From Opitutia bacterium (GTDB lineage Bacteria; Verrucomicrobiota; Verrucomicrobiia; Opitutales; Opitutaceae): 64,000 nucleotides of DNA. The DNA lies in NCBI GenBank assembly GCA_016187945.1, contig JACPIT010000013.1, positions 124,001 through 188,000 of the forward strand, written 5' to 3'. Made by a program: the position numbers and the translations under genes. This document shows, piece after piece, positions 16,163 through 31,583 of this stretch. Position 1 is the stretch's first letter. Every line of letters starts with the position of its first letter. A model generated the notes under the pieces. That model was not told the origin of the DNA, did not search any database, and worked only from the letters and a program-made list of their open reading frames with translations.

Positions 16163-17911
16163 ATGAAACATCGCGATCTCGTTTGTGCGAGTTCGGTCGC
16201 TTTGCTGTTCGTGGCCGCGACCTGGCCCGCTGCGAGCATGGGCATCGACACGCATCATGACGGCGTGATGCTGAAGCCCGCGCTGGATGTGCTTTCGGGC
16301 CAAGTTCTCTTTCGCGACACATTCAGCCAATATGGCGCGCTGACGACTTATTTGCATGCCGTGGTGCTGTGGTTTTCGCCGACGTTGCTCGCGTTGAAAT
16401 GGTTCACGATCGCGGTCTACGGAATGGCGCTGTTTTTCCTGTTTTTGGCGTGGCGCACCTTCCTGCCGTTGTCGCTCACGATCTTCGCCAGTGTGCTTTT
16501 CTTTGTTTTGTTGCCGGTCTACGAACGGATTTGGGCCGGCGGCGTTACGGCACTGCTGCCATGGTCGTCGGTCGTCGCGCTGCTCTTTCAAGCCATCGGT
16601 TTGCTCGCGTTGCTGCGTCTCGTGCGGGGCGAGCGTTCTGTCGGCTGGAGCGCCGCGCTGGGGACAGCTTGCGCGTGCGTGTTTTGGTGTCGAATGCCGG
16701 TCGGCGTAACAATGGCCGGTGGCCTCGTGATCTGTGGGCTGTGCCTGAGTTGGCTGCGCGGCCGTCCCTCCCCCGAGACAGTCAAATGCACCGTGTTGCC
16801 CGCTTTGGTAGCTTTCACGGCGATCAACCTGGCCATGCTCGGCGGCATTCTGCTCAACGGCGCTGGCGGCGATTGGTGGTATCAGAATTTCGTGTGGCCT
16901 GGGAAGTGGGCGCAAAGCACCACCGGCCACGCCGCGCCGGTCACCTGGCGGGTGTTTTTCCCCGCACCGGAGAGCATCGCGCTGCTTCTGCTGGCGATCG
17001 CAACGGGCGCTGCGTCGGCGCACTGGCATCGCAGCGACCGCCCGAGCGTCCGTCGGATTGCCGTGGTCGCAGCCATCGGGTTTGTCGGCCTGTTGCTGTG
17101 GAAACGCGACGTGCTTTTCGCGCTTTTCGTCGCGCGCCAGGGCAGTTGGGCGGTGCTCGTGCCGCTGGCGATCGTCATCCAGGCGATCGTCGCCACGGTC
17201 CGCTGTTTTCGCGCCAAGGCCGGCAGTAACGACTTCGTGCTGGCCGCGGCTGGAGGCTTCGCCCTCACCTCGCTGCCGCAGTATTTTCCGCTCGCCGATC
17301 CGTGGCATGCGCTGTGGGCAATGGCGCCGGGCATCGGTGTGGCGGCGGCGGCGTTTGGGAAGTGCCTTCCCTGGCGGCCGGGCGTCGTCGCCGCCGCTCT
17401 CGCCGTGCTGCTCGTGCCGGCATTCGTTCGCAAAGTGCGGGCGGAGGTCCACGCCATCCGCAGCCCGTGGGTGAGGTTGACCGAGCCCGCTGTCTTGCGC
17501 GGCATGCGTGTGCAACCGGTCGATGCCCGTTATTTTCAGGCCATCACGGCAGCGATCAAGCGCGTGGTGGTCCATCGCCCCGATCTTTCCGCCGTCGTCG
17601 TTTCCGGCGATCCGTTGCCGCTGTGCCTCGTGCCCAATCTCGAAAATCCGACGCCGCTGTTCGTGGCCTGGCCGGGGCTGATCGACGCCGTTTCCGAACA
17701 GCGTCGCTGGAGCTATATCCACGCCGTGCGCCCGCTCGTAATTGTCCATAACGCCCACTGGGAGATCGTCGACGAGTTCTACCGCAAGGCTCGCTACGCG
17801 CCGCTGCTCTATTATCATGAGAACGCGCTGGAACTCGCCGCGCCGATCGAACTCCTCGAAGCCGCCGGCGTCCCGAAAGGCGGCATCCCGCTCCCGGCTG
17901 TGTCCCCATGA
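16163..17911 (+). CDS. Polytopic membrane protein, GT-C glycosyltransferase-like
   Basis: A 582-residue protein with about ten to eleven predicted spans. After the first span it reads MGIDTHHDGVMLKPAL and then LFRDTFSQYGALTTY, echoing YREVFSQYGPL in the protein at 1072-3279. The last 130 residues are soluble. Start ATG at 16163 (MKHRDLVCASS) was preferred over an upstream ATG at 16130 because it leads directly into the first span. Its stop overlaps the next start as ATGA, so it is coupled to a GT2 enzyme. This mirrors the GT2/membrane-protein pair at the start of the window, in reverse order. Confidence 0.7.
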   Translation: MKHRDLVCASSVALLFVAATWPAASMGIDTHHDGVMLKPALDVLSGQVLFRDTFSQYGALTTYLHAVVLWFSPTLLALKWFTIAVYGMALFFLFLAWRTFLPLSLTIFASVLFFVLLPVYERIWAGGVTALLPWSSVVALLFQAIGLLALLRLVRGERSVGWSAALGTACACVFWCRMPVGVTMAGGLVICGLCLSWLRGRPSPETVKCTVLPALVAFTAINLAMLGGILLNGAGGDWWYQNFVWPGKWAQSTTGHAAPVTWRVFFPAPESIALLLLAIATGAASAHWHRSDRPSVRRIAVVAAIGFVGLLLWKRDVLFALFVARQGSWAVLVPLAIVIQAIVATVRCFRAKAGSNDFVLAAAGGFALTSLPQYFPLADPWHALWAMAPGIGVAAAAFGKCLPWRPGVVAAALAVLLVPAFVRKVRAEVHAIRSPWVRLTEPAVLRGMRVQPVDARYFQAITAAIKRVVVHRPDLSAVVVSGDPLPLCLVPNLENPTPLFVAWPGLIDAVSEQRRWSYIHAVRPLVIVHNAHWEIVDEFYRKARYAPLLYYHENALELAAPIELLEAAGVPKGGIPLPAVSP

Positions 17912-18837
17912 AGCATCTCACGATCGTCAGCGGCTGCTACAACGAGGCGTCCAATCTCCCCGAGTTTCTGCGCCGCGTTTGGGCCGTGACCGCCCGCTTT
18001 CCCGACTTCCAGTGGAACGTGCTCCTCATCGACAACGCTTCCACCGACGACTCGGAAAAAATCCTGCGTGCAGCCGCCGCCGCCGAGCCGCGCCTGAAGG
18101 TCATTTTCAACGCCCGCAACTTCGGCCACATCCGCTCGCCCTACCATGGCATCCTGCAGGCGCCGGGCGACGCGGTGATCTTCCTCGCCTCCGACCTCCA
18201 GGATCCGCCCGAGTTGATCGAGCAGTTCATTCCGCTATGGGAAAAGGGCGCGCAGGTCGTCGCCGCGGTGAAAAACGAGAGCGAGGAATCCCCGCTGTTT
18301 TTCCTCGTCCGCAAAATCTACTACCGCCTCGTCGCGCGGCTCGCCGATGTCGACCTGCTGCGCAACTTCACCGGTTTCGGCCTCTACGACCGGCGGCTCG
18401 TCGAATACCTGCGCGCGAGCGAGGATCCTTATCCGTATCTGCGCGGGCAGATTTCCGAGATCGGACTTCCCGTCACCCGTGTGCCGTTCGTGCAGCCCCG
18501 CCGCAAACGCGGTTTTTCGAAGAACAATTTCTACACGCTCTACGACATCGCGATGCTCGGCTTCACCAATCACACGAAGGTGCCGCTGCGCCTCGCGACG
18601 ATCGCCGGGTTCACGATGGCGCTCTTCTGCTTTGGAGTGAGCCTCGGCTACTTGATCTACAAGCTGCTAAACTGGGAAAGTTTTCAGCTCGGACTCGCGC
18701 CGATTGTGGTCGGGTTGTTCTTCATCGGCTCGGTGCAGCTCTTCTTCATCGGCGTGCTCGGCGAATACATCGGCGCGATCCACACCAAGGTCACGAAGCG
18801 TCCGCTCGTCGTCGAGCGCGAGCGCCTAAACTTCTGA
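17908..18837 (+). CDS. GT2 family polyprenyl-phosphate glycosyltransferase (GtrB-like)
   Basis: A 309-residue GT2 enzyme with two C-terminal membrane spans and the closing GVLGEYIGAIHTKV signature. N-terminal features are VSGCYNEASNL and IDNAST at 41-46. The metal-site region reads LASDLQDPPE at 93-102, where the first Asp of the usual DAD is Ala; the Asp that normally aligns with the metal-coordinating residue (96) is kept. Coupled by ATGA overlap to the membrane protein upstream. Probably loads a sugar onto undecaprenyl phosphate for that partner. Confidence 0.85.
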   Translation: MKHLTIVSGCYNEASNLPEFLRRVWAVTARFPDFQWNVLLIDNASTDDSEKILRAAAAAEPRLKVIFNARNFGHIRSPYHGILQAPGDAVIFLASDLQDPPELIEQFIPLWEKGAQVVAAVKNESEESPLFFLVRKIYYRLVARLADVDLLRNFTGFGLYDRRLVEYLRASEDPYPYLRGQISEIGLPVTRVPFVQPRRKRGFSKNNFYTLYDIAMLGFTNHTKVPLRLATIAGFTMALFCFGVSLGYLIYKLLNWESFQLGLAPIVVGLFFIGSVQLFFIGVLGEYIGAIHTKVTKRPLVVERERLNF

Positions 18838-18856: not shown

Positions 18857-20650
18857 TCAGCGCATTTCCTGCGCTAGCTGTTCCGGCGAAAGGAGGGGAT
18901 ACATCTCGTGCAGCGGCTTGGACTGCATCCGGCCGTCCTCGAGCCGCACCGAGGTCACACAGGGCACGAAGTCCTGTTGCTCGCCGGTGAATACCTCGCA
19001 CAGCACCGGACCCTCGTGCGCGAGGAACCGCTGCATCAGGCCGCTCAGTTCGCTCCGTTTCGCCGTCGTCAAGTGGGGCAATCCGTAGGCCGCGCACAGC
19101 TTCGGCAGGTCCGGGAAACTCAGGCCGGATTTCACGGTGGTGCCGGAGTAATGCCCGCCGAAATAATTCCGCTGGGTGTTGGCGATGCACGAGTAGCCGT
19201 GGTTGTTAATGACGAGAATCTTGGCGTTCAGCTTGTGGTGCACGATCACCCCGAGTTCGTGGATGTTCGTCTGCAAGGAGCCGTCGCCCGTGATGCCCAC
19301 GATCGTGCGCCCGGGAGCGCCCAAGCAGGCACCCGTTACCGCCGGCAACGTGTAGCCCATCTGGGCCAGCGCGCCGCTGAAGATCAGCCGCTGGCCGGGC
19401 TTGCTGCGAAACGCCTGGCCCGTGATGAAGAACGCGCAGCCGGCGTCGGCGATGATGGTCTCCTCGCCCCGACACGCATCGGAGAGCTGGTCGATCACGT
19501 CGTAATAATTCAGGTCGTCATCGCCGCGCCGATGCGCCTCGGCCGCCACCGGGTAGGTCTTTTTCCACCGCTGCGTGCGCGCCGTCCATGCCGCGCCTCC
19601 GAACCGGAGGTCGCGCGTGGTCGCGATCTCGTTCGCCGCGCGAATGAAGGCGCCGACGCAGGACCGGATCTTCGTCTGGATGCCCACCCGGGTGCTGTCG
19701 AGGACGGGCTGGTCGGGATCCACGTGGATTTTCCGCGCGGCGGGCGCGAAGTCCGCGAGTTCGTAGCCTGTCATCTGTGCCCGCACGCTCGAGCCGACGA
19801 TCAACACGACGTCTGCCGTCTGGATGCTGAAATTCCCTGCGCGGTCGCCTTTGACTCCGGGGTGGCCGATGTAGAGCGGATGGTCGTGCGGGATCAGGTC
19901 GGCCGCCATCGGCGTCGTAACGACCGGGATGCCGAGCTTCTCGACCAGCCGCAAAAATCCAGCCGCTTCCTTGGCGCAGCGGATACCGTGGCCAGCGAAG
20001 ATGAGCGGTCGTTGCGCCGCCAGCAGGAGATCCAGCACCTCGCCGACCTCGGTCCGGCTCGCGACCGGCACCGCCGGCGGTGTCTCATCCCAAGGGCGAA
20101 GCGTGGCGGGGTCGATCGGCGCGCCCTGCACGTCCACCGGCACTTCGAAGTAAACCGGGCCGGGACGACCGGTCGTGGCGAGGTGATAGGCCTTCTCCAG
20201 CTCGAAGCGGACCCGTTGCGGATCCTTCAGGAAAACCGCATACTTGGTGACGGACTGGACGATCGGCACCATGTCGATTTCGAAAGTGCCCAACTGTCGG
20301 AGCCCCACCTGGCCCGTGCCCCGGATCGTGTCGGACACCTTCGCTTGGCCGGCGATAACGATCAGCGGCGACGAATCCTGGTAGGCGCTGACGATTCCGG
20401 TGATGGTGTTGGAAGCGCCCGGGCCGCTGGTGGCGTAGCACACCCCAATGGACTCGCGCTGGCGGCCATAAGCCTCCGCCGCGAAGGTGCACGCCTGCTC
20501 GTGGTGGTTACAGATATACTTGAGCTTCTTGCGCCGACTGAGGGCGTCCTGTAGATGCATCATGCCGCCGCCCGAAAGCATGAAGGCGCAGTCCACTCCC
20601 TTTTGCTCCAGAAATTCGGCGATGAAATCGCCAACGCGAATCGTGGCCAT
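18857..20650 (-). CDS. TPP-dependent acetolactate-synthase-like enzyme, YerE-like candidate
   Basis: A 597-residue enzyme of the acetohydroxyacid-synthase/pyruvate-oxidase type. The catalytic Glu of the N-terminal TPP domain is in NHHEQACTFAAEAYGR (Glu51). SGPGASNTITGIVSAYQDSS follows, and the C-terminal TPP motif runs from GDGS (about 455) to INNHG (about 483). It is the last gene of the CDP-sugar operon, eleven bases after the panB-like gene, with no regulatory ilvN/ilvH subunit nearby. Known context: in yersiniose A biosynthesis YerE, a TPP/FAD enzyme, adds the acetyl unit of pyruvate to C-4 of CDP-3,6-dideoxy-4-keto-glucose, the product of RfbF/G/H chemistry. I infer a similar ketol-type addition. 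Ordinary acetolactate synthesis is the alternative. Confidence 0.8.
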   Translation of the reverse strand: MATIRVGDFIAEFLEQKGVDCAFMLSGGGMMHLQDALSRRKKLKYICNHHEQACTFAAEAYGRQRESIGVCYATSGPGASNTITGIVSAYQDSSPLIVIAGQAKVSDTIRGTGQVGLRQLGTFEIDMVPIVQSVTKYAVFLKDPQRVRFELEKAYHLATTGRPGPVYFEVPVDVQGAPIDPATLRPWDETPPAVPVASRTEVGEVLDLLLAAQRPLIFAGHGIRCAKEAAGFLRLVEKLGIPVVTTPMAADLIPHDHPLYIGHPGVKGDRAGNFSIQTADVVLIVGSSVRAQMTGYELADFAPAARKIHVDPDQPVLDSTRVGIQTKIRSCVGAFIRAANEIATTRDLRFGGAAWTARTQRWKKTYPVAAEAHRRGDDDLNYYDVIDQLSDACRGEETIIADAGCAFFITGQAFRSKPGQRLIFSGALAQMGYTLPAVTGACLGAPGRTIVGITGDGSLQTNIHELGVIVHHKLNAKILVINNHGYSCIANTQRNYFGGHYSGTTVKSGLSFPDLPKLCAAYGLPHLTTAKRSELSGLMQRFLAHEGPVLCEVFTGEQQDFVPCVTSVRLEDGRMQSKPLHEMYPLLSPEQLAQEMR

Positions 20651-20661
20651 AGCGGATGGGC

Positions 20662-21525
20662 TTACTTCTTCCCGTGCTTCGCAACGATCTCGGCCAAGGC
20701 CTCGGGAGCGATCGGGTAGAGATGGTCCTTTGCCGGAAAGGCGCCGGACCTGACCTCGGCCGCGTAGCTTCGCAGCGCCTCGGTGATCAGCCTGCGACCT
20801 TCGAGATAGCGTTTGGCGAACTTCGGCTCGATGTCGCCCACGAACGTGCCGAGCACGTCGTGCATGATGAGCAGTTGGCCGTCGAGTTTGCCACCCGCGC
20901 CAATGCCGTAGACCGGGATGGACAGGGCGTCGCGGATCATGCCGGCCGGCTCATCGGGCATGGCTTCGAGCAGCAGGAACGACGCACCAGCCTCCTCGAC
21001 GGCCATCGCGTCGGCCAGCAGGCTGTCGTATTCCTTGAGATTCTTGCCGTAAACCTTGTAGCCCCCCTGCAGCGAGATGCTTTGCGGCGTCAGGCCGAGG
21101 TGCCCCATGACCGCGATGCCGGCATCCACGATTGCCTTGATGCGTCCGCACACCGCAATACCGCCCTCGAGTTTCACCGCCTCGCAACCGCCCTCGGCCA
21201 GAAAGCGGCTAGCATTGAGCACCGCCGATTCGTTGGAAAGCTGGTATGACATGAAGGGCATGTCGCCGATCAGCATCGCCGTCTTGACGCCGCGCGCGAC
21301 CGCCTTCGAAAACTGGAGCATCTCATCCATCGTCACCGGAAGAGTGTTCTTGTAGCCGAGCATCGTCATGCCGCCGCTATCCCCCACCAGGATCCAGTCC
21401 ATGCCGGCTTCATCGGCGAAAACCGCCGAAGGGTAGTCGTAGGCCGTGATCGCGGAGGCCGGGATACCCTTGCTCTTCAATTGGCGCAGGGCGCCGAGGT
21501 TCATCTTTTTTCGACCAGCGGTCAT
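20662..21525 (-). CDS. panB: 3-methyl-2-oxobutanoate hydroxymethyltransferase-like (PanB family)
   Basis: A 287-residue PanB-family enzyme that transfers a hydroxymethyl group from methylene-tetrahydrofolate to a 2-oxo acid. Metal ligands and active-site residues are present: Asp49 in VGDSGGM, Asp88 in IGDMPF, Lys118 and Glu120 in VKLEGG, Glu187 in LLLEAMP, plus MGHLGLTPQS. The loop VGDSGGM has Gly where most PanB have Leu. panC does not follow, and the gene sits inside a sugar operon between an SDR enzyme and a TPP enzyme. It may serve pantothenate synthesis, or it may make a hydroxymethylated 2-oxo acid as donor for the neighbouring TPP enzyme. Confidence 0.88.
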   Translation of the reverse strand: MTAGRKKMNLGALRQLKSKGIPASAITAYDYPSAVFADEAGMDWILVGDSGGMTMLGYKNTLPVTMDEMLQFSKAVARGVKTAMLIGDMPFMSYQLSNESAVLNASRFLAEGGCEAVKLEGGIAVCGRIKAIVDAGIAVMGHLGLTPQSISLQGGYKVYGKNLKEYDSLLADAMAVEEAGASFLLLEAMPDEPAGMIRDALSIPVYGIGAGGKLDGQLLIMHDVLGTFVGDIEPKFAKRYLEGRRLITEALRSYAAEVRSGAFPAKDHLYPIAPEALAEIVAKHGKK

Positions 21526-21644
21526 GGGCTTGTGGGACTTTTCGTCCGGCAGCCAGACGACAGGCCATTAATTCCCAATCCGCACGGACAGGACAAGGGG
21601 AATAACCGGCACACCGGGTCCGGCGCGGTCTTAAAACGTCGTTT

Positions 21645-22673
21645 TTACCGGTGCCAGGCCGCCGTGCGTCTGAGCGCATCGTCGAGGGGAATCCGCGCTT
21701 GCAGCCCCAATTCCTGTCCGGCGCGACGCACCGACGGCACATAACGCATCGGCACTGCTCCAGGCACTGCGTGTCGCGCGATCCTGATCGTCGCGCCCGG
21801 CGCGATCGTCGCGCGCACGCGATCTGCCGTCTCGGCGATCGTCAGCGCGTCGCCGGAACCCACGTTGTAGGCTCGGCCGTTTTCCGCGCGGAACAGCAAC
21901 GTCCAGAGCCACACCGCCAGGTCAGCAGCATATAGATAGCTGCGCTGCGGCGTGCCGTCACCCGCCACCTGGATCGGCCCGCCGCACAGCGCATCGCCAA
22001 TGAAATTGCCAACGGCAAAATGCGCGTCGAGCGGGAGGTGCGGGCCGACGAAGGCGAAACAGCGGGCGATCTTCACTTCGAATCCGCCAGCGGACGCGCG
22101 TTCGCGGCACAACTCCTCGCCGGCCAACTTTCCCTGGCCGTAACCCGTGACCGGACACGCCGGCATCTCCTCTGGAATATGCGTCACCTCCACGGGCTGG
22201 ACGCCATATACCGCACCGGAACTCGTCAGGAGAAATTTGCGCGCACCGGTTTGCGCGGCGAAATCCAACACGCGGCGTGTGCCGTCAACAATGGCGGACC
22301 TGACCGGTTCGGGATCGGCGCCGGCCGGCGCGACGACGGTGTCGCCCGCGGCGTGGACGACGTAAGGGAACCGGCCGATCGGGAACGGAAACGATTTCAC
22401 GTCGCCGGCGACAAATTCCAAATCGCCGCGCGTCGCCAGATGCGGCGCTTTGCGCGCGAATGCTTCCGGGCTCCGCGACAACACCGTCGCCCGCATCCCG
22501 AGCCGCCACGTGTCGTTCGCCCGCGCGAAACTCTCCAGCAGCCACATGCCGAAGAAACCCGTGCCGCCGGTGATGAAGAACCGCGCGCCAGCCGCGCCGC
22601 GCCAGAGTTCGCGAGTGTGCGCCAGCACGTGCTCGAGATCCTCGTCGGGCAGCGGTGGCAGCGGCGCGGTCAT
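21645..22673 (-). CDS. NAD(P)-dependent sugar epimerase/dehydratase/reductase (extended SDR)
   Basis: A 342-residue extended SDR. The nucleotide-binding glycine motif FITGGTGFFG is at 33-42, SSGAVYG at 151-157 and the catalytic Y178..K182 in GYGQGKLAG. It starts by ATGA overlap with rfbH. In this position it could reduce the keto group of the branched or unbranched CDP-3,6-dideoxy-4-keto sugar (a YerF-, paratose- or abequose-synthase-like role). The exact reaction cannot be told from sequence. A 119-base gap separates it from panB, the only sizeable gap in the operon. Confidence 0.85.
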   Translation of the reverse strand: MTAPLPPLPDEDLEHVLAHTRELWRGAAGARFFITGGTGFFGMWLLESFARANDTWRLGMRATVLSRSPEAFARKAPHLATRGDLEFVAGDVKSFPFPIGRFPYVVHAAGDTVVAPAGADPEPVRSAIVDGTRRVLDFAAQTGARKFLLTSSGAVYGVQPVEVTHIPEEMPACPVTGYGQGKLAGEELCRERASAGGFEVKIARCFAFVGPHLPLDAHFAVGNFIGDALCGGPIQVAGDGTPQRSYLYAADLAVWLWTLLFRAENGRAYNVGSGDALTIAETADRVRATIAPGATIRIARHAVPGAVPMRYVPSVRRAGQELGLQARIPLDDALRRTAAWHR

Positions 22674-24166
22674 GGCCGGGAGCGGACGAACTCGTGCAGC
22701 ACTTCGAGTTCGTAGGCGAGCATCGCCGGCGTCAGGCCGGGGAAAGTGCCGAGGAACAGCGCGCGCTCCATCAACTCGTCGGCACCGGTCATTTCGCCGG
22801 CAACGCGCAGCGCCTGCGGGCGCTCCCGACGCAACTGCACGAAGGCCGGTTGCCGCAGCAGATTTCCGCCGAACAGCCGGCGATGCCCGATCTTCCGCGC
22901 GTCGAGGTGCCGCGCGAGGTCGGTGCTCGTGAACGGCGCGTCCGCGCGCACCCGCAGCATGAAACCGAACCAGCTCGGGTCGGCGCGCGCGCCACTGTCG
23001 TCCCATTCGAACTCGCCGCGCTGCCAGCGGCGCGCGTGCGTCGGCAGCGTGAACTCGAAAAATCCCTCCAAGTCCGCGAGCCCGTCGCGGAGCGCCTGCC
23101 AGTGCCGCTTCCGCGCGATCGTGAAGCCGGGCAGCTTCCGCAATTGCGCGCGCCCGATCGCCGCCTGCAGGTCGAGCGGTTTCAGGTTATAGCCGAGATG
23201 GCTGTAGATGTATTTGTGGTCGTAGCCGCGCGGCAGTTCGCCGAGCTGCCACTGGAAACGCTTGCCGCACGTGTCGTCCTTGCCGCTCGCGCACCAGCAG
23301 TCGCGCCCCCAGTCGCGGAAGCTCTCCGCGTAGGTCTTCAGTGGCGGACGCTGCACGATGTTGACCGCACCACCTTCGCCCATCGTCAGGTGATGCGGCG
23401 GATAAAACGACTGCGTCGAGAGATCGCCCCAAGTTCCGGTGTAGCGCGTGATGTGCACGCCGTCCGACGGCAGCCCAGGCGAGTTCTCCGAGAAACCCAG
23501 CGCCTGCGCGCGCTCGCGCGGGAGCGAGTAGGTCGACCCGAGCGCGTCGCAGTTGTCCTCGATCAGCCACAAGTCGTGCCGCCGGCAAAACTCCAGCACC
23601 GCGCCGAGGTCGAACGGATTGCCCAGCGTGTGGGCCATCATCACCGCTTTTGTGCGGCCGGCGGCGAAGGCCGATTCGAGTTGGTCGACGCGCACGTTGC
23701 CGGTGACGGGATCGTTGTCGATGAACACCGGCACCGCACCGCATTGAATGATCGGCGCCACCGTAGTCGGAAAACCGGCCGCCACCGTGATCACCTCGTC
23801 GTCCGGCAGGAGTCGTCGCGCGGCGGGCAGCTTCGGCGAAGTCAGCGTGGCGACGGCAACGAGATTGGCCGACGAGCCGGAGTTCACGAGCAACGTGTGC
23901 TTCACGCCCAAGCCGGCGGCGAACTCCCGCTCGAATGCCTCGCCTTCGGGGCCGAGCGTCAGCCAGAAATCGAGCGCGGAGCCGACCGCCGCCGTCACTT
24001 CCTCGGCGTCGAACACGCGCGCCGCGTAGGGCACCGGAGTCGTCCCGGGCACGAACGGCGCGTCGTTCTCCTCGCTCGGGCGATTCGCGCCGTGCTGGAG
24101 TGCGGCGAATTCCCGCGTGAGTCGCAGGATCTCGGCTTTGAGCGCTTCGGCGGACGGTTTAGTCAT
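22670..24166 (-). CDS. rfbH: CDP-4-keto-6-deoxy-glucose 3-dehydrase (E1, RfbH)
   Basis: A 498-residue PLP enzyme that, with an iron-sulfur reductase, removes the C-3 hydroxyl from CDP-4-keto-6-deoxyglucose. The PLP lysine of aminotransferases is replaced by His258 in SFYPPHHLTMGEGG, the E1 hallmark. The [2Fe-2S] ligands fit C290-W-C292-x7-C300 with Cys206 upstream. In the known enzyme the first two cysteines are 57 residues apart; here 83 residues intervene, so about 26 residues (roughly 216-241, LPRERAQALGFSENSPGL...) appear inserted. This explains the length above the usual 440 or so. ATG at 24166 overlaps rfbG by eight bases. No reductase (E3, ascD/ddhD-like) is encoded in the window. Confidence 0.93.
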   Translation of the reverse strand: MTKPSAEALKAEILRLTREFAALQHGANRPSEENDAPFVPGTTPVPYAARVFDAEEVTAAVGSALDFWLTLGPEGEAFEREFAAGLGVKHTLLVNSGSSANLVAVATLTSPKLPAARRLLPDDEVITVAAGFPTTVAPIIQCGAVPVFIDNDPVTGNVRVDQLESAFAAGRTKAVMMAHTLGNPFDLGAVLEFCRRHDLWLIEDNCDALGSTYSLPRERAQALGFSENSPGLPSDGVHITRYTGTWGDLSTQSFYPPHHLTMGEGGAVNIVQRPPLKTYAESFRDWGRDCWCASGKDDTCGKRFQWQLGELPRGYDHKYIYSHLGYNLKPLDLQAAIGRAQLRKLPGFTIARKRHWQALRDGLADLEGFFEFTLPTHARRWQRGEFEWDDSGARADPSWFGFMLRVRADAPFTSTDLARHLDARKIGHRRLFGGNLLRQPAFVQLRRERPQALRVAGEMTGADELMERALFLGTFPGLTPAMLAYELEVLHEFVRSRP

Positions 24167-25286
24167 GAGCCCACTCCACGCGGTTACTGCGCGCCGCTTC
24201 GACATACTCGTCGATCTGCCGGCGCGTCGCCGTCCCGGCGGCGGATGGCTCCGCGGCGACCTCGCGATACCACGCCGCCGTGTGCGCGATCGTCGTTTCA
24301 AAATCCCACACCGGTCGCCACCCGAGGACGCGTCGCGCCCGCTCGACGTCCAAGCCGAGCTGCGCCGCCTCGTGCACCGCGCCGGGTTCACTGCGTTCCT
24401 CCGCGCGCCCCGGCCAGTGTTTCAAGAATTCCGCAACCAGCGCGGCTACTGGACGCGCCGCGTCGGCTTCCGGGCCGAAGTTGAACGCCGCCCAATCGCC
24501 CCCGTCCGCTCCGACGCCGCGCAATCGTGCCGCAAGCCAGAGATAACCCGCGAGCGGCTCGAGCACGTGCTGCCAGGGGCGCGTAGCGTGCGGATTGCGC
24601 ACCGCCACCGGCGCGGCGCGCTGCAACGCCCGCACGCAGTCGGGCACGATGCGATCGAGCGCCCAATCGCCCCCGCCGACGACGTTGCCGGCGCGCGCGG
24701 CGACGACTCGCACCGGCGAGTCCGCCGTCGCAAAATACGAGCGACGGTAAGCGGCCACTGCCATCTCCGCCGCCGCCTTCGAAGCGCTGTAGGGATCGTG
24801 CCCGCCGAGCGGCTCGTCTTCGCGGTAGCGATGCGGCCGGCCGTGATTTTCGTAGACCTTGTCGGTCGTCGCCACGACCACGGTGGACGGACGACCCGCG
24901 GCGCGCACGGCTTCGAGCACGTTGATCGTGCCCATGACGTTCGTCGAAAACGTCTCCACCGGGTCCGCATACGACCGCCGCACGAGCGGCTGCGCCGCGA
25001 GGTGGAACACAAACTCCGGCTGCGCCGCCTCGATCGCCGCGCGCACCGCGGCGGCATCGCGCACGTCTCCGCGCCGGTCGCTCACGCGCGCGGCGAGCCC
25101 CAGTTGCTCGAACAAAGCCGGCTGCGTCGGCAACGCCGGCAGCGCGAGGCCCGCGACGTCGGCGCCGAGAGCCAGCAGCCATTCGCACAGCCACGCGCCT
25201 TTGAATCCCGTGTGTCCGGTCACGAGCACGCGCCGCGCGGCGAACGCGCCCCCGAAGGCCGCCCGAGTTGGGTTCGCAACGTTCAC
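24159..25286 (-). CDS. rfbG: CDP-glucose 4,6-dehydratase
   Basis: A 375-residue extended SDR that turns CDP-glucose into CDP-4-keto-6-deoxyglucose. NAD-binding VTGHTGFKGAW is at 22-32; ATTDKVYENHG is at 139-149 and the catalytic Y166..K170 is in DPYSASK. FKGAW and DKVYEN are characteristic of CDP- rather than dTDP-glucose dehydratases. GTG at 25286 overlaps the rfbF stop as GTGA. Confidence 0.94.
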   Translation of the reverse strand: MNVANPTRAAFGGAFAARRVLVTGHTGFKGAWLCEWLLALGADVAGLALPALPTQPALFEQLGLAARVSDRRGDVRDAAAVRAAIEAAQPEFVFHLAAQPLVRRSYADPVETFSTNVMGTINVLEAVRAAGRPSTVVVATTDKVYENHGRPHRYREDEPLGGHDPYSASKAAAEMAVAAYRRSYFATADSPVRVVAARAGNVVGGGDWALDRIVPDCVRALQRAAPVAVRNPHATRPWQHVLEPLAGYLWLAARLRGVGADGGDWAAFNFGPEADAARPVAALVAEFLKHWPGRAEERSEPGAVHEAAQLGLDVERARRVLGWRPVWDFETTIAHTAAWYREVAAEPSAAGTATRRQIDEYVEAARSNRVEWAHD

Positions 25287-26065
25287 CAGACTTTCCACGG
25301 CGCGCGGCCCTCCGCCCAGAGCCGATTGAGGTGCTGCGTTTCCTGATAGGTGTCCATCGGCTGCCAGAAGCCCTCGTGACGATAGGCGTTCAACTGCCCG
25401 TCGCGCACGAGTGACTGCATCGGTTGTTGTTCGAGCATCACGTGCGGGTCGTCGGAGAGGTAGTCGAACAATTTGTGCTCGCAGACCATGAAGCCGCCGT
25501 TGACCTGCGCCTGCTCGAACTGAGGCTTCTCGATGAACGTCTGGATTTTTCCGTCCCGGGCGATGCGCAGCGCGCCGAAGCGGCCGGCCGGGTGCACCGC
25601 CGAGATTGTGCAAACCTTCCCCGCCGTCCGATGCGAGGCGGTGAGCGCGGCGAGGTCGATCGTCGCCAAGCCGTCGCCGTAGGTGAGCATGAACGGTTCG
25701 CCAGCGGGGATGTAGCGTTGGATGCGCTTCACGCGCGCCGCAGTCATCGTGTCTTCACCGGTGTTCGCGAGCGTCACGGTCCAGTTTTCCTCGGCGTGGC
25801 CGTCGTGCACTTGCAACCGATCGTTCTGCCCGAGGCTGAGCGTGACGTCGCAGGTGTTCCACAGGTAGTTGCGGAAATAGTCTTTGATCATCTCGCCCTT
25901 GTAGCCGAGGCAGAGCACGAAATCGCGGCAGCCGTGGTGCGCGTAGATTTTCATGATGTGCCACAGGATCGGCTGGCCTCCGATCGGCACCATGGGCTTC
26001 GGCCGGTATTCGGTTTCCTCGCGCAACCGGGTGCCTTTGCCACCGCAAAGTATCACGACTTTCAT
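25283..26065 (-). CDS. rfbF: Glucose-1-phosphate cytidylyltransferase
   Basis: A 260-residue enzyme forming CDP-glucose from CTP and glucose-1-phosphate. LCGGKGTRLREET is the nucleotidyltransferase signature; RPKPMVPIGGQPILWHIM and LGYKGEMIKDYF match RfbF closely. It is the first gene of the six-gene minus-strand operon. Confidence 0.95.
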   Translation of the reverse strand: MKVVILCGGKGTRLREETEYRPKPMVPIGGQPILWHIMKIYAHHGCRDFVLCLGYKGEMIKDYFRNYLWNTCDVTLSLGQNDRLQVHDGHAEENWTVTLANTGEDTMTAARVKRIQRYIPAGEPFMLTYGDGLATIDLAALTASHRTAGKVCTISAVHPAGRFGALRIARDGKIQTFIEKPQFEQAQVNGGFMVCEHKLFDYLSDDPHVMLEQQPMQSLVRDGQLNAYRHEGFWQPMDTYQETQHLNRLWAEGRAPWKVW

Positions 26066-27836: not shown

Positions 27837-28685
27837 ATGTCCATGCCTACGCCTGGTCAAAACTTCCGCGCCGCTCTCGCCGCCGAGTCGCCGCTTCAAA
27901 TCGCCGGCGCCCTCAACGCCTACGCCGCCCTGCTCGCCGAGCGGGCCGGCTTCCGCGCGCTCTACCTCTCCGGCGCCGGCGTCGCCAACCACTCCTACGG
28001 CTGGCCCGACATCGGCCAAACCGCCCTCGCCGACGTCCTGATCGACGCCCGCCGCATCGCGCGCCGCGTCGCGCTGCCGCTGCTCGTCGACATCGACACC
28101 GGTTGGGACGACCCCGCCGGGGCCGTGCACGAACTCGCCCTCGCCGGCGTCGCCGCCGTCCACATCGAAGACCAGGTCGCCGCGAAAGTCTGCGGCCACC
28201 TCCCCGGCAAACACCTCGTCTCCACCGGCGAAATGGTCGACCGCGTCCGCGCCGCCGTCTCCGGCAAACCCGACGCGAGCTTCGTCGTCATGGCCCGCAC
28301 CGACGCCGCCGCGAACGAAGGCCTCTCCGGCGCCATCACCCGCGCCCACGCCTACGTCGATGCCGGCGCCGACATGATTTTCGCCGAAGCGCTGCACACG
28401 CTCGACGACTACCGCGCGTTCACCGCCGCGATCGACGTGCCCGTGCTCGCGAACCTCACCGAGTTCGGCAAGACGCCTCTGTTCACCGTCGACCAGCTCC
28501 GCTCCGCCGGCATCGCGATGGCGCTCTACCCGCTCGGCGCCTCGCGCGCCGCCGCGGCCGCCGCGCAGGATTTCTACACCACGCTCCGCCGCGACGGCAC
28601 GCAGCAAGCCGTCGTGCCGAAAATGCAAACCCGCTCCGACCTCTACACCACCCTCGGCTACACACCGCCGAAGGAAACGAGATAG
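27837..28685 (+). CDS. prpB: Methylisocitrate lyase (isocitrate lyase/PEP mutase family)
   Basis: A 282-residue enzyme that cleaves 2-methylisocitrate to succinate and pyruvate. [20 protein letters not shown] and the metal site VDIDTGWDD lead to [18 protein letters not shown], which holds the catalytic Cys in the KxCGH-type loop. The family normally has KRCGH; here it is KVCGH, within family variation. The neighbours prpC and prpD settle the assignment over PEP mutase. Confidence 0.9.
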
Positions 28686-28687
28686 CC

Positions 28688-28746
28688 CCGCGGATCACGC
28701 GGATTTCGCGGATCAGTCTATCCGCGTCCATCCGCGCCATCCGCGG
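28688..28746. repeat. Hairpin of triple CGCGGAT units between prpB and prpC
   Basis: Three CGCGGAT units at 9-base spacing on the left face three ATCCGCG units at 9-10-base spacing on the right around a very short centre. The transcript would fold into a long imperfect hairpin between the two coding regions. Confidence 0.8.
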
Positions 28747-28762
28747 AAAACATAACTCCACG

Positions 28763-29950
28763 ATGAGCATCGATACCCCCGCCTCCGCTCAACCGCCCGC
28801 GCCGAAAGGCAAAAAATCCGTCGCGCTCTCCGGCGTCGTCGCCGGCAACACCGCCATCTGCACCGTCGGCCACTCGGGCAACGACCTGCATTACCGCGGC
28901 TACGACATCGCCGACCTCGCGCGCGAAGCGACCTACGAGGAGATCGCGCACCTCCTCATCCACGAGCGCCTGCCCAACCGCGCCGAACTCGCCGCTTACC
29001 AAAAACACCTCGCCTCGCTCCGCGGCCTCTCCGCGCCGCTGCGCACGATCCTCGAGCAACTCCCCGCGCGTTCGCACCCGATGGGCGTGTTGCGCACCGG
29101 CTGCTCCGCCCTCGGCGCGATGGACACCGAGCCCTCCGCGCCCGACGGCAGCGGCCCGAAAGATCCCGTCGTCGCGCGCCGCATCGCCGACACGCTCATC
29201 GCCTGCTTCCCGTCGATGCTGCTCTATTGGCACCACTTCGCCACGACCGGCAAACGCATCGACGTCGAGACCGACGACCCGACGATCGCCGCACATTTCC
29301 TCCGCCTGCTCCACCAACGCGCCCCGCAACCCTCGCACGTCCGCGCGCTCGATCGCTCGCTGATCCTCTACGCCGAACACGAGTTCAACGCCTCGACGTT
29401 CACCGCGCGCGTCATCGCCGGCACCGGCTCCGGCCTCTACGGCTGCGTCACCGGCGCCATCGGCGCCCTCCGCGGCCCGAAACACGGCGGCGCCAACGAA
29501 GTCGCCTTCGAAATCCAGCGCCGCTACCGCACGCCCGACGAAGCCGAGGCCGACCTCCGCGTCCGACTGGCGCGCAAGGAAATCGTCATCGGCTTCGGTC
29601 ACCCGGTCTACACCGTCAGCGATCCGCGCAACGCCATCATCAAGGAAATCGCCCGCGAACTCTGCACCGAAGCCGGCACGCTCACGCGCTTCCAAGTCGC
29701 CGAGCGCATCGAGCAGGTGATGTGGTCCGAGAAAAAAATGTTTCCCAACCTCGATTGGTTCAGCGCCGTCGCCTACCACGAGATGGGCGTGCCCACCGCG
29801 ATGTTCACGCCGCTCTTCGTCATCGCCCGCACCGCCGGCTGGGCCGCGCACGTGATCGAGCAACGCGCCGACGGCAAAATCATCCGCCCGTCAGCCAACT
29901 ACACCGGCCCCGCCGACCGCCCGCTCCCGCCGCTGGCGCAACGCGCCTAA
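28763..29950 (+). CDS. prpC: 2-methylcitrate synthase / citrate synthase
   Basis: A 395-residue citrate-synthase-family enzyme joining propionyl-CoA and oxaloacetate. Catalytic regions are GPKHGGANE, the signature [13 protein letters not shown] and [16 protein letters not shown], giving His, His and Asp. The N-terminal region [20 protein letters not shown] is typical of short-type methylcitrate synthases. The ATG at 28763 is 16 bases after a hairpin repeat. Co-directional with prpB and prpD. Confidence 0.93.
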
Positions 29951-29956
29951 TCTCTT

Positions 29957-30029
29957 TCCTCTTTCTCTTAATCTTTCTCCCCGCACCGAGTCGCCAGCAG
30001 GAGAAAGAGAAAGATTAAGAGAAAGAGGA
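29957..30029. repeat. Long perfect pyrimidine/purine inverted repeat
   Basis: A 23-base pyrimidine-rich arm (29957-29979, TCCTCTTTCTCTTAATC...) is exactly complementary to 30007-30029 across a 27-base loop. It begins six bases after the prpC stop. It could slow or end transcription, or protect the 3' end of the prpBC message. Confidence 0.85.
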
Positions 30030-30061
30030 GGGAATCCGCTGTTCGCGCAAACGCTCCCCGC

Positions 30062-30096
30062 CTACTCGCTACCCGCTACTCACTACTCGCTACTTT
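30062..30096. repeat. Five tandem heptads CTACTCG just upstream of prpD
   Basis: Units CTACTCG, CTACCCG, CTACTCA, CTACTCG and CTACTTT follow one another and end eight bases before the prpD GTG. They take the place where a ribosome binding site would lie. Confidence 0.75.
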
Positions 30097-30104
30097 CCCG
30101 TCCC

Positions 30105-31583
30105 GTGTCCTCCCACATCTCCAACGTCCGCCCCGCTCCCGACCAACTCCTCGTCGACCTCGCCGACTACGCGCTCAACGCGCAGATCGCCAGCGACGAA
30201 GCCTACGACACCGCGCGCTGGTGCCTCGCCGACACGCTCGCGTGCGGCATCATGGCCCTCGCCTACCCGGCGTGCACGAAGCTCCTCGGCCCCGTCGTCC
30301 CCGGCACGGCGATCGTCAACGGCGCGCGCGTCCCCGGCACCAGCTACGAACTCGATCCCGTGCAAGCCGCGTTCAACATCGGCGCGATCGTCCGCTGGCT
30401 CGACTTCAACGACACCTGGCTCGCCGCCGAATGGGGCCACCCCTCGGATAATCTCGGAGCGATTCTCGCGACATCCGACTGGATCAGTCGCAATCTTGCG
30501 GCCGGCGTCCAGCCGGCTGCGTTCGGCTCTCAGCTCTCAGCTCTCAACTCTCAACTGAAGGTCAGGGACCTCCTGACCTTCATGATCAAAGCCCACGAAA
30601 TCCAAGGCGTCCTCGCCCTCGCCAACTCCTTCAACCGCGTCGGCCTCGATCACGTCCTCCTCGTCCGCGTCGCCTCCACCGCCGTCACCGCCGCGATGCT
30701 CGGCGGCACGCGCGACCAAGTCATCAACGCCATTTCGCACGCCTGGCTCGACGGCTCCGCGCTGCGCACTTACCGCCACGCGCCCAACACCGGCTCGCGC
30801 AAATCGTGGGCCGCCGGCGACGCCACCAGCCGCGCCGTCCGCCTCGCCCTCATCGCGCTCACCGGCGAAATGGGTTACCCCTCCGTCCTCACCGCCAAGA
30901 CCTGGGGCTTTCAAGACGTCTCCTTCAAAGGCAACCCGGTGAAACTCGCGCGCCCGCTCGGCAGCTACGTGATGGAGCACGTCCTCTTCAAAATCTCCTT
31001 CCCCGCCGAATTCCACGCGCAGACCGCCGTCGAGTGCGCCCTCCAACTCCACCCCGAAGTTCGCGACCGCCTCGACCAGATCGAGCGCATCGAGATGACG
31101 ACGCACGAGTCGGCCATCCGCATCATCGACAAGACCGGCCCGCTCCACAACCCGGCCGACCGCGACCACTGCCTCCAATACATGGCCGCCATCGGCCTGA
31201 TCTTCGGCGAACTCACCGCCGACCACTACGAGGACAAAATCGCCGCCGACCCGCGCATCGACGCCCTCCGCGCGAAGATGGTCGTCACCGAGGACAAGCA
31301 ATACAGCCGCGACTACCTCGACCCGGAGAAGCGCTCCATCGCCAACGCGATCCAAGTCTTCTTCCGCGACGGCACCCATACCGAGCACATCGAAGTCCAC
31401 TACCCCCTCGGCCACCGCCGCCGCCGGAAGGAAGGCATCCCCGTCCTCCAACAAAAAGCCCGCGACGCCTTCACCGCCCACTACGGCAAGGACAAGGCCG
31501 CGCAGCTCATGGCCCTCTTCGCCGACCGCACAAAACTCGAGACGATGCCCGTGCACGAGTTCGTGAGCGCATTCATGAAGTAA
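30105..31583 (+). CDS. prpD: 2-methylcitrate dehydratase (MmgE/PrpD family)
   Basis: A 492-residue enzyme dehydrating 2-methylcitrate. Family blocks are seen throughout: [71 protein letters not shown] and [19 protein letters not shown]. Start GTG at 30105 follows a heptad repeat with no Shine-Dalgarno sequence. Between ISRN and [11 protein letters not shown] the protein carries about ten extra residues ([11 protein letters not shown]) encoded by GCTCTCA heptads, followed by a perfect hairpin; a repeat has been absorbed in frame. The surrounding motifs are intact, so the enzyme is probably active. Confidence 0.93.
30526..30581. repeat. Heptad array plus hairpin inside prpD
   Basis: GCTCTCA occurs three times and ACTCTCA once in tandem (30526-30553). 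Right after it lies a perfect inverted repeat GAAGGTCAGG/CCTGACCTTC around GACCT (30557-30581). All of it is translated in the prpD frame. Confidence 0.8.

Follow-up and report, generated by a model that had tools for sequence, protein, structure and literature searches.

A PanB paralogue beside a YerE-like thiamine-diphosphate enzyme: a candidate donor-making module in a CDP-sugar operon of an Opitutia bacterium

What is PanB, a hydroxymethyltransferase of pantothenate (vitamin B5) synthesis, doing in an operon that otherwise appears to serve a nucleotide-activated sugar? The question is raised by six genes within a 64,000-nucleotide stretch of DNA from an Opitutia bacterium (GenBank assembly GCA_016187945.1, contig JACPIT010000013.1, positions 124,001 to 188,000 of the forward strand; the whole stretch is termed 'the window' here), which lies on contig 1 of a 5.47 Mb assembly in 16 contigs. 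Read head to tail on the minus strand, the operon consists of rfbF, rfbG, rfbH, a gene for a short-chain dehydrogenase/reductase (SDR), panB and a gene for a thiamine-diphosphate (TPP) enzyme. PanB is not known to take part in the pathway to the branched sugar yersiniose. An earlier note on this DNA had suggested that PanB hydroxymethylates a 2-oxo acid, which the TPP enzyme then decarboxylates and adds to the sugar. That overall reading is supported by the analysis reported here: the TPP protein did not prove to be IlvB, nor the window's panB to be the only one in the genome, while the chemistry, its order and the sugar itself are predictions from sequence.

The relevant precedents are summarized in a review, in the sections that describe these enzymes (PMC12247030). 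YerE uses pyruvate as its donor and cytidine diphosphate (CDP)-3,6-dideoxy-4-keto-glucose as its acceptor; the YerE-like enzyme ErwE takes 4-hydroxy-2-oxo acids as donors, not pyruvate, with 4-hydroxy-2-oxobutanoate among those preferred; and JanthE, also YerE-like, accepts long donors and carries CDG in its cofactor motif.

For the window's operon, we consider it fairly probable that PanB makes a 4-hydroxy-2-oxo acid, and that this acid is then decarboxylated by the TPP enzyme, which joins the remaining unit to C-4 of CDP-4-keto-3,6-dideoxyglucose. As judged from the curated families to which they belong, RfbF, RfbG and RfbH would provide CDP-4-keto-3,6-dideoxy-D-glucose. PanB, using its usual one-carbon donor (5,10-methylene-tetrahydrofolate), would hydroxymethylate a 2-oxo acid, with a product that depends upon the acceptor: 4-hydroxy-2-oxobutanoate from pyruvate, 4-hydroxy-3-methyl-2-oxobutanoate from 2-oxobutanoate, or ketopantoate from 3-methyl-2-oxobutanoate. 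The YerE-like enzyme, following the precedent of ErwE, would decarboxylate the hydroxy acid and place a 3-hydroxyacyl group on the C-4 ketone, thereby creating a tertiary alcohol; the SDR would then reduce the new ketone, and a family-2 glycosyltransferase (GT2) encoded next to the operon would pass the sugar on. A broader idea, whose chances we put at about even, is that PanB was recruited from vitamin B5 synthesis as a partner of the TPP enzyme, yielding a 3-hydroxyacyl or 1,3-dihydroxyalkyl branch, and that YerE-like loci carry exchangeable modules, such that the gene beside the TPP gene predicts the branch.

The identity of the TPP enzyme is central to this proposal. The protein contains a GDG-X24-NN stretch, which we take (in part from the review already mentioned) to be its cofactor motif. 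Its assignment as the IlvB of the lineage was rejected: it scores 339.3 bits against TIGR00118 (cut-off 538.35), whereas the true IlvB of the genome, on contig 12, scores 736.9 bits. Its best match in the PDB is 8rph (371 bits, residues 4-596), compared with 247 bits for the best acetohydroxyacid synthase (AHAS), and 8rph falls inside the set of TPP relatives in trees rooted on the genome's own IlvB. The PDB file labels that entry only as a 'thiamine pyrophosphate-binding protein'; from the CDG in its aligned cofactor motif we infer that it is JanthE, and it is the only characterized YerE-like row in the tree, from which YpYerE and ErwE are absent. Phylogeny, suggested by the earlier note as a check, thus groups the window's protein with 8rph, taken as JanthE, and by these comparisons the protein belongs with YerE-like enzymes and not with acetolactate synthase. 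Within the tree its own clade (support 100/100) comprises L103 and L104, from Bdellovibrionota, and L106, from Pedobacter (numbers prefixed L, G and C are our labels for loci, genomes and contigs). The genomic link of the YerE-like class to genes for CDP-4-keto-3,6-dideoxyglucose is present as well, in the form of RfbF, RfbG and RfbH, and the enzyme is proposed to move an acyl unit to the C-4 ketone.

The window's PanB, for its part, is a full member of its family. It passes both NCBIfam PanB models, and it keeps D49, D88, K118, E120, H142 and E187, which we take to be the catalytic residues and which 68 of 68 comparison PanBs also keep; the earlier statement that all active-site residues are conserved holds for these positions. 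It is nevertheless unneeded for vitamin B5 in this organism, because an ordinary panB lies directly before panC on contig 14 of the same genome. The second panB beside panC that the earlier note had thought worth seeking is thus found, and the window's gene is not the sole panB of a prototroph. Genes for PanC occur on contigs 14 and 15 and not on contig 1, leaving the window's PanB without a panC link; the contig-15 copy (G000:C15:13890-14714), which has no panB match nearby, could pair with it. Among the matches listed by a tblastn search of plasmids, the best panB (52.7%) itself adjoins panC, and the best TPP gene reaches 32.2%, the listed rows being, where annotated, acetolactate synthase or glyoxylate carboligase.

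The window's PanB also belongs to a separate subfamily, for which we use the name 'PanB-S'. Together with the PanB of an Elusimicrobia contig (L107) and three Elusimicrobia orthologues of the latter (78-80% identity), it forms one clade (100/99) in a comparison with 44 other PanBs, among them 23 of the 24 nearest PanBs fetched from the window's phylum; the clade also held against a first set of 35 others. G51, Y206 and I220 (window numbering) are found in all five PanB-S proteins and in none of 92 other PanBs, and three further positions differ between the groups: 72 (F or L in PanB-S, H in 89 of the 92), 138 (A or L, against P in 91) and 193 (P, against L in 73). At each of these six positions the PanB-S letters recur in 0 or 1 of the 92, and the PanB-S proteins retain all of the presumed catalytic residues. 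A PanB at E 1e-61 or better is present in 215 of the 387 genomes sampled from the phylum, and the signature is absent from the 24 nearest of these after the window's own (L280-L303, 47-56%), to which this check was limited. A Nitrospirae panB (L138, 54-55%) was considered as a further member and rejected, having one of ten signature letters and unrelated genes beside it.

Three Elusimicrobia genomes with a lone PanB-S (G510, G652 and G475) gave no panC match (PF02569), whereas each of five genomes that have an ordinary panB, selected from the same sample, has one. A missing panC could reflect assembly loss, although three cases of three make loss less likely. These same genomes hold two, one and two TPP relatives (358-545 bits to the L107 TPP protein; not placed in the tree), and in two of them RfbH-type genes lie close to such a relative. 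On such comparisons PanB-S would appear to be a PanB paralogue that left pantothenate synthesis.

The earlier note had proposed looking for panB-TPP pairs in other genomes, and a second one exists in a different phylum. The Elusimicrobia contig of L107 carries, in order, an E3-like reductase, PanB-S, a TPP enzyme, an SDR and a GT2, with 11 and 48 bases flanking panB. That contig starts just before the reductase, and RfbFGH are not visible there; relatives of this reductase (82-85%) adjoin RfbH in G475 and G510. As in the window's genome, there is a second panB, beside panC. A looser third case is that of G605 (L246:9226-12022, G605:C73), where a divergent PanB-like protein (39%), which keeps the presumed catalytic residues and 4 of the 10 signature letters, follows a TPP relative; its cluster includes radical-SAM-like and nucleotidyltransferase-like genes (by eye), with no RfbFGH in 19.9 kb, and a panB-panC pair is found in G605 too. 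By a hand calculation that assumes some 3500 genes per genome and roughly 210 loci in slightly overlapping sets, and that excludes the window as having been chosen for its pair, about 0.1 same-strand PanB directly next to a TPP gene would be expected by chance, against the two seen (L107 and G605).

If PanB supplies a donor, other YerE-like genes might be expected to have 2-oxo-acid-forming neighbors of their own. In the 387 phylum genomes, TPP relatives at E 1e-80 or better were found at 94 places. Of the 93 outside the window, 80 were fetched with flanks of up to 10 kb, and 34 loci were added from a one-genome-per-species collection; after a duplicate and a fragment had been dropped, the 80 phylum places, 32 of the 34 collection loci and the window made up a set of 113. 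Donor families were named by Pfam and NCBIfam on representatives and counted with these by tblastn, so that divergent members are missed and the counts concern families, not substrates. As the logic of a 2-oxo-acid maker feeding the TPP enzyme predicts, such a family occurs within 6 kb of the TPP gene in 72 of the 113 loci (in 27 there is none, and 14 are truncated at a contig end): NeuB type in 32, HpcH/HpaI in 25, DmpG in 14, class I/II aminotransferase in 6 and PanB in 2. The nearest donor enzyme is on the TPP strand in 70 of the 72 and within 300 bases in 43. Control genes at the same distance were rare: NadD in two loci (one being the window, the source of the query), and PrpB, PrpD and PanC in none, the NadD, PrpB and PrpD queries having been taken from the window and labeled by eye. 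The Elusimicrobiota sample supplied 36 additional short loci with flanks of 1.5 kb, among which L250 and L251 duplicate earlier ones and L228 and L231 come from a single locus; these gave HpcH in 18, NeuB in 5, DmpG in 5, PanB in 1 and none in 10.

The chemistry of HpcH/HpaI, DmpG and PanB yields 4-hydroxy-2-oxo acids, and it is with two of these families that the closest relatives of the window's TPP enzyme are associated. Genes for DmpF, DmpG and an HpcH/HpaI aldolase are present in each of L103, L104 and L106 (in L104 the aldolase gene, seen solely by tblastn, lies downstream of the TPP gene), and in L103, L106, L105 and L132 the HpcH/HpaI gene lies directly upstream of the TPP gene, at the place where the window has panB. 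PanB-S would be one more exchangeable donor module at that place. Over a 116-row TPP tree the donor labels require 33 changes, against a mean of 71 when shuffled (as low in 0 of 200 shuffles); the labels came from a narrower count in which 'none', 'cut' and outgroup were treated as labels too, and the test shows only that labels cluster on the tree.

The survey also turned up other arrangements. NeuB-family synthases stand near YerE-like TPP genes in L083, L088, L089, L093, L101 and others (the 32 loci counted above); should their products be long 3-deoxy-2-ulosonic acids, an entire sugar-like chain would be attached to C-4 by the TPP enzyme, and this might account for branched sugars of very large size. 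Mostly between the NeuB-type gene and the TPP gene, a protein of about 200 amino acids without a Pfam family (one representative tested; cluster c10) is encoded in 9 of the 113 loci (L101:8504-9103 and eight others). In L063, L070, L085 and L087, whose TPP proteins are the nearest kin of that of L107, a class I/II aminotransferase gene lies 0-9 bases from the TPP gene (by tblastn ends), and the donor acid may arise there from an amino acid through the action of the aminotransferase. Methyltransferase and radical-SAM genes near the TPP gene in L101, L121 and L123, with a B12 domain type in L101 and L121 as well, suggest that the corresponding sugars are likely to be decorated further. Finally, a single locus may hold two YerE-like TPP genes, either in tandem or no more than about 3 kb apart, as in L245 (G605:C34), G698:C42 and G638:C318.

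The remaining genes of the operon would supply and finish the sugar. The six genes named by the earlier note are all in place on the minus strand, with RfbF, RfbG, RfbH and PanB passing family cut-offs (Table 1), and the cytidylyltransferase, 4,6-dehydratase and RfbH together make up a CDP-3,6-dideoxyhexose set. RfbH contains a CXCX7C stretch (CWCASGKDDTC); its reductase partner (E3) is not part of the operon, and matches to an E3 query lie within 6 kb of the TPP gene in only 5 of the 113 loci, the source of the query included. At least one of RfbF, RfbG and RfbH was matched by tblastn near the TPP gene in 71 of the 113 loci and all three in 55, counts that take in matches down to 25% identity, some of them distant kin only. 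Homologues of the SDR (at least 40%) and of the GT2 (at least 38%) occur in 41 and 59 of these loci, respectively, counting the window in both; the SDR probably reduces a ketone, either in the branch or in the sugar, and the GT2 is proposed to transfer the sugar.

Table 1. Genes of the operon and its convergent neighbors (positions in the window)
Gene product	Position	Strand	Basis and remarks
RfbF, glucose-1-phosphate cytidylyltransferase	25283..26065	-	TIGR02623 341.7 bits (cut-off 300.25)
RfbG, CDP-glucose 4,6-dehydratase	24159..25286	-	TIGR02622 442.9 bits (cut-off 278.45); GTG start is the author's choice
RfbH, CDP-4-keto-6-deoxyglucose 3-dehydrase (E1)	22670..24166	-	NF011936 619.5 bits (cut-off 423)
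SDR, extended epimerase/dehydratase type	21645..22673	-	PF01370 8.2e-33; under every NCBIfam cut-off listed
PanB of separate subfamily 'PanB-S' (author's name)	20662..21525	-	TIGR00222 292.7 bits (cut-off 207.55)
YerE-like TPP lyase	18857..20650	-	under every cut-off among 25 of 53 families listed; best PDB match 8rph
GT2, convergent	17908..18837	+	PF00535 84 bits; NF047588 143 bits (under cut-off 500)
Large protein, hydrophobic by eye	16163..17911	+	no Pfam family; overlaps GT2 start by 4 bases

The operon had been described as tightly packed, which is apt for its first three junctions (overlaps of 4, 8 and 4 bases) and for the 11 bases between panB and the TPP gene, and slightly too strong for the 119 bases between the SDR gene and panB, where a simple scan of the minus strand listed no terminator-like site. 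The TPP and GT2 genes converge with 19 bases between their stops; the models nearest to the GT2, PgfS and ArnC-type, both score below cut-off. The hydrophobic protein encoded ahead of the GT2 has a homologue in 2 of the 113 loci, the window counted, and is a GT2 partner only by position. Upstream of the operon, past a porin-like gene, the window carries PrpB-, citrate synthase- and PrpD-like genes of a methylcitrate cycle (27837-31583), all so labeled by eye.

Several observations weigh against the proposal that PanB-S provides the donor. Ketopantoate, the product of PanB from 3-methyl-2-oxobutanoate, would be a crowded donor, for which reason pyruvate or 2-oxobutanoate are our guess at the likeliest acceptors. 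The closest TPP relatives carry DmpFG besides HpcH/HpaI, and may thus use longer donors than PanB would yield. No E3-like reductase was found in the window's genome with one divergent query, a weak test. PanB stands beside the TPP gene in only 2 of the 113 loci, one being the window; among 105 TPP places of the Elusimicrobiota sample, compared by eye, it adjoins in two (the L107 genome and G605) and is 7.6 kb off in one; and three of the four Elusimicrobia PanB-S genes do not adjoin a TPP gene, one of the three being that at 7.6 kb. The PanB-linked TPP proteins of the window and L107 are not sisters, that of L107 forming a clade with four aminotransferase-linked ones (100/100), and PanB-S therefore joined, or was kept by, two different TPP lineages. 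PanB-S occurs, at that level, in the window's own genome alone among 252 of its family, the one other family match to the window's PanB (E 1e-60 at 42%) being counted among ordinary PanBs. As for the origin of the pair, a genome of the same genus (G001) has RfbH (74%) and a TPP gene (38%) directly after the SDR, without PanB, and with a NeuB-like match (36%) 1.9 kb from the TPP gene. Because of these last two findings, the PanB-TPP pair is best seen as a swapped-in cassette, either old enough to match local composition or acquired from a source with a similar one; the idea of a compositionally foreign block was rejected, since the guanine-plus-cytosine content of the pair (62-65%) gives no sign of one against the 66% of the window. 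Lastly, the window's PanB is 55-57% identical to two ordinary PanBs of its phylum and 53% to that of L107, and path lengths in the tree place an ordinary PanB at the same distance from it as a PanB-S member (1.71 versus 1.72), its nearness to ordinary PanBs, despite the clade, being due to the long branch that leads to the Elusimicrobia four.

This last point lowers our estimate for a donor-making PanB-S and raises that for a simpler account, still unlikely in our judgment, in which pyruvate serves the operon as the donor for a yersiniose-like sugar, PanB being a surplus enzyme of pantothenate synthesis that came to lie there by chance. Pyruvate is, after all, the donor of YerE (PMC12247030, in the part describing it); these queries find no donor enzyme at 27 of the 113 loci; and a PanB that retains every presumed catalytic residue, passes the equivalog cut-off and shares its genome with a panC lacking a panB nearby could serve pantothenate synthesis. 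Against this, however, stand the ordinary panB-panC pair in the same genome, the same subfamily directly upstream of a YerE-like TPP gene in another phylum, the separate clade with its own residues, the three PanB-S genomes without a panC match, and the aldolases linked to the close relatives of the TPP enzyme. A different order of events, with acetyl added first and PanB-S then hydroxymethylating the methyl ketone of the branched sugar, would use the same genes and end in an identical branch; an alpha-hydroxy ketone might coordinate the metal in the manner of a 2-oxo acid, and the signature changes of PanB-S may mean another acceptor. We think this order quite improbable, as the enzymes beside the TPP gene in relatives (HpcH/HpaI, DmpG, NeuB type, aminotransferase) come from families whose members form or liberate free 2-oxo acids, and as ErwE, in the review's description, takes the finished hydroxy acid (PMC12247030). 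There is, finally, a slim chance that PanB-S acts as an aldolase or lyase upon an aldehyde other than the folate one-carbon unit, so that another 4-hydroxy-2-oxo acid still feeds the TPP enzyme. Its position, which is that of HpcH/HpaI in L103, L106, L105 and L132, and the several residues at which it differs from 92 other PanBs are compatible with such a role, whereas all of its presumed catalytic residues are those of PanB, and both NCBIfam PanB models score it above cut-off.

Were PanB-S indeed the maker of the donor, an enzyme of cofactor synthesis would have gained a second job in surface-sugar chemistry, and the presence of a full PanB in a sugar operon would be explained. The branch, and the substrate to try, could then be predicted from the neighboring donor enzyme; and a pair of enzymes, PanB and a TPP enzyme that accepts ketones, would offer a route to tertiary alcohols bearing a hydroxymethyl arm.

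The class of TPP enzyme, the CDP pathway and the use of hydroxylated donors are already known. A PanB in such an operon or as a donor maker, or a count of exchangeable donor modules, is unreported in the titles and abstract openings of the literature searched, although full texts (for example, PMC7610986) may mention them. The nearest parallel is the erwiniose pathway of Pectobacterium atrosepticum, in which ErwE is reported to add a hydroxylated 2-oxo acid donor to CDP-4-keto-3,6-dideoxyglucose; the review's section on that pathway mentions no PanB, and ErwE is compared here by description only (PMC12247030). The caryophyllose and gastriose enzymes (MMAR_2332 and MygE) are likewise described there as YerE-like, with hydroxylated or long donors, and differ in being mycobacterial; they too are compared by the review's description only. 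JanthE, if it is 8rph, is the best PDB match of the window's TPP enzyme and groups with DmpFG-linked loci, but it has CDG in place of GDG in its cofactor motif and falls in a different clade. The yersiniose system, known here by description only, shares the acceptor and the TPP class (PMC12247030, in its description of YerE/YerF), and presumably RfbFGH-type genes and a final reductase; its donor is pyruvate, whereas the window has a PanB beside its TPP enzyme. The pantothenate PanB, in turn, shares with PanB-S its family, both NCBIfam cut-offs and the same presumed catalytic residues, whereas PanB-S stands apart from panC, in a clade of its own (100/99), with G51, F or L at 72, A or L at 138, P193, Y206 and I220 as its distinguishing residues.

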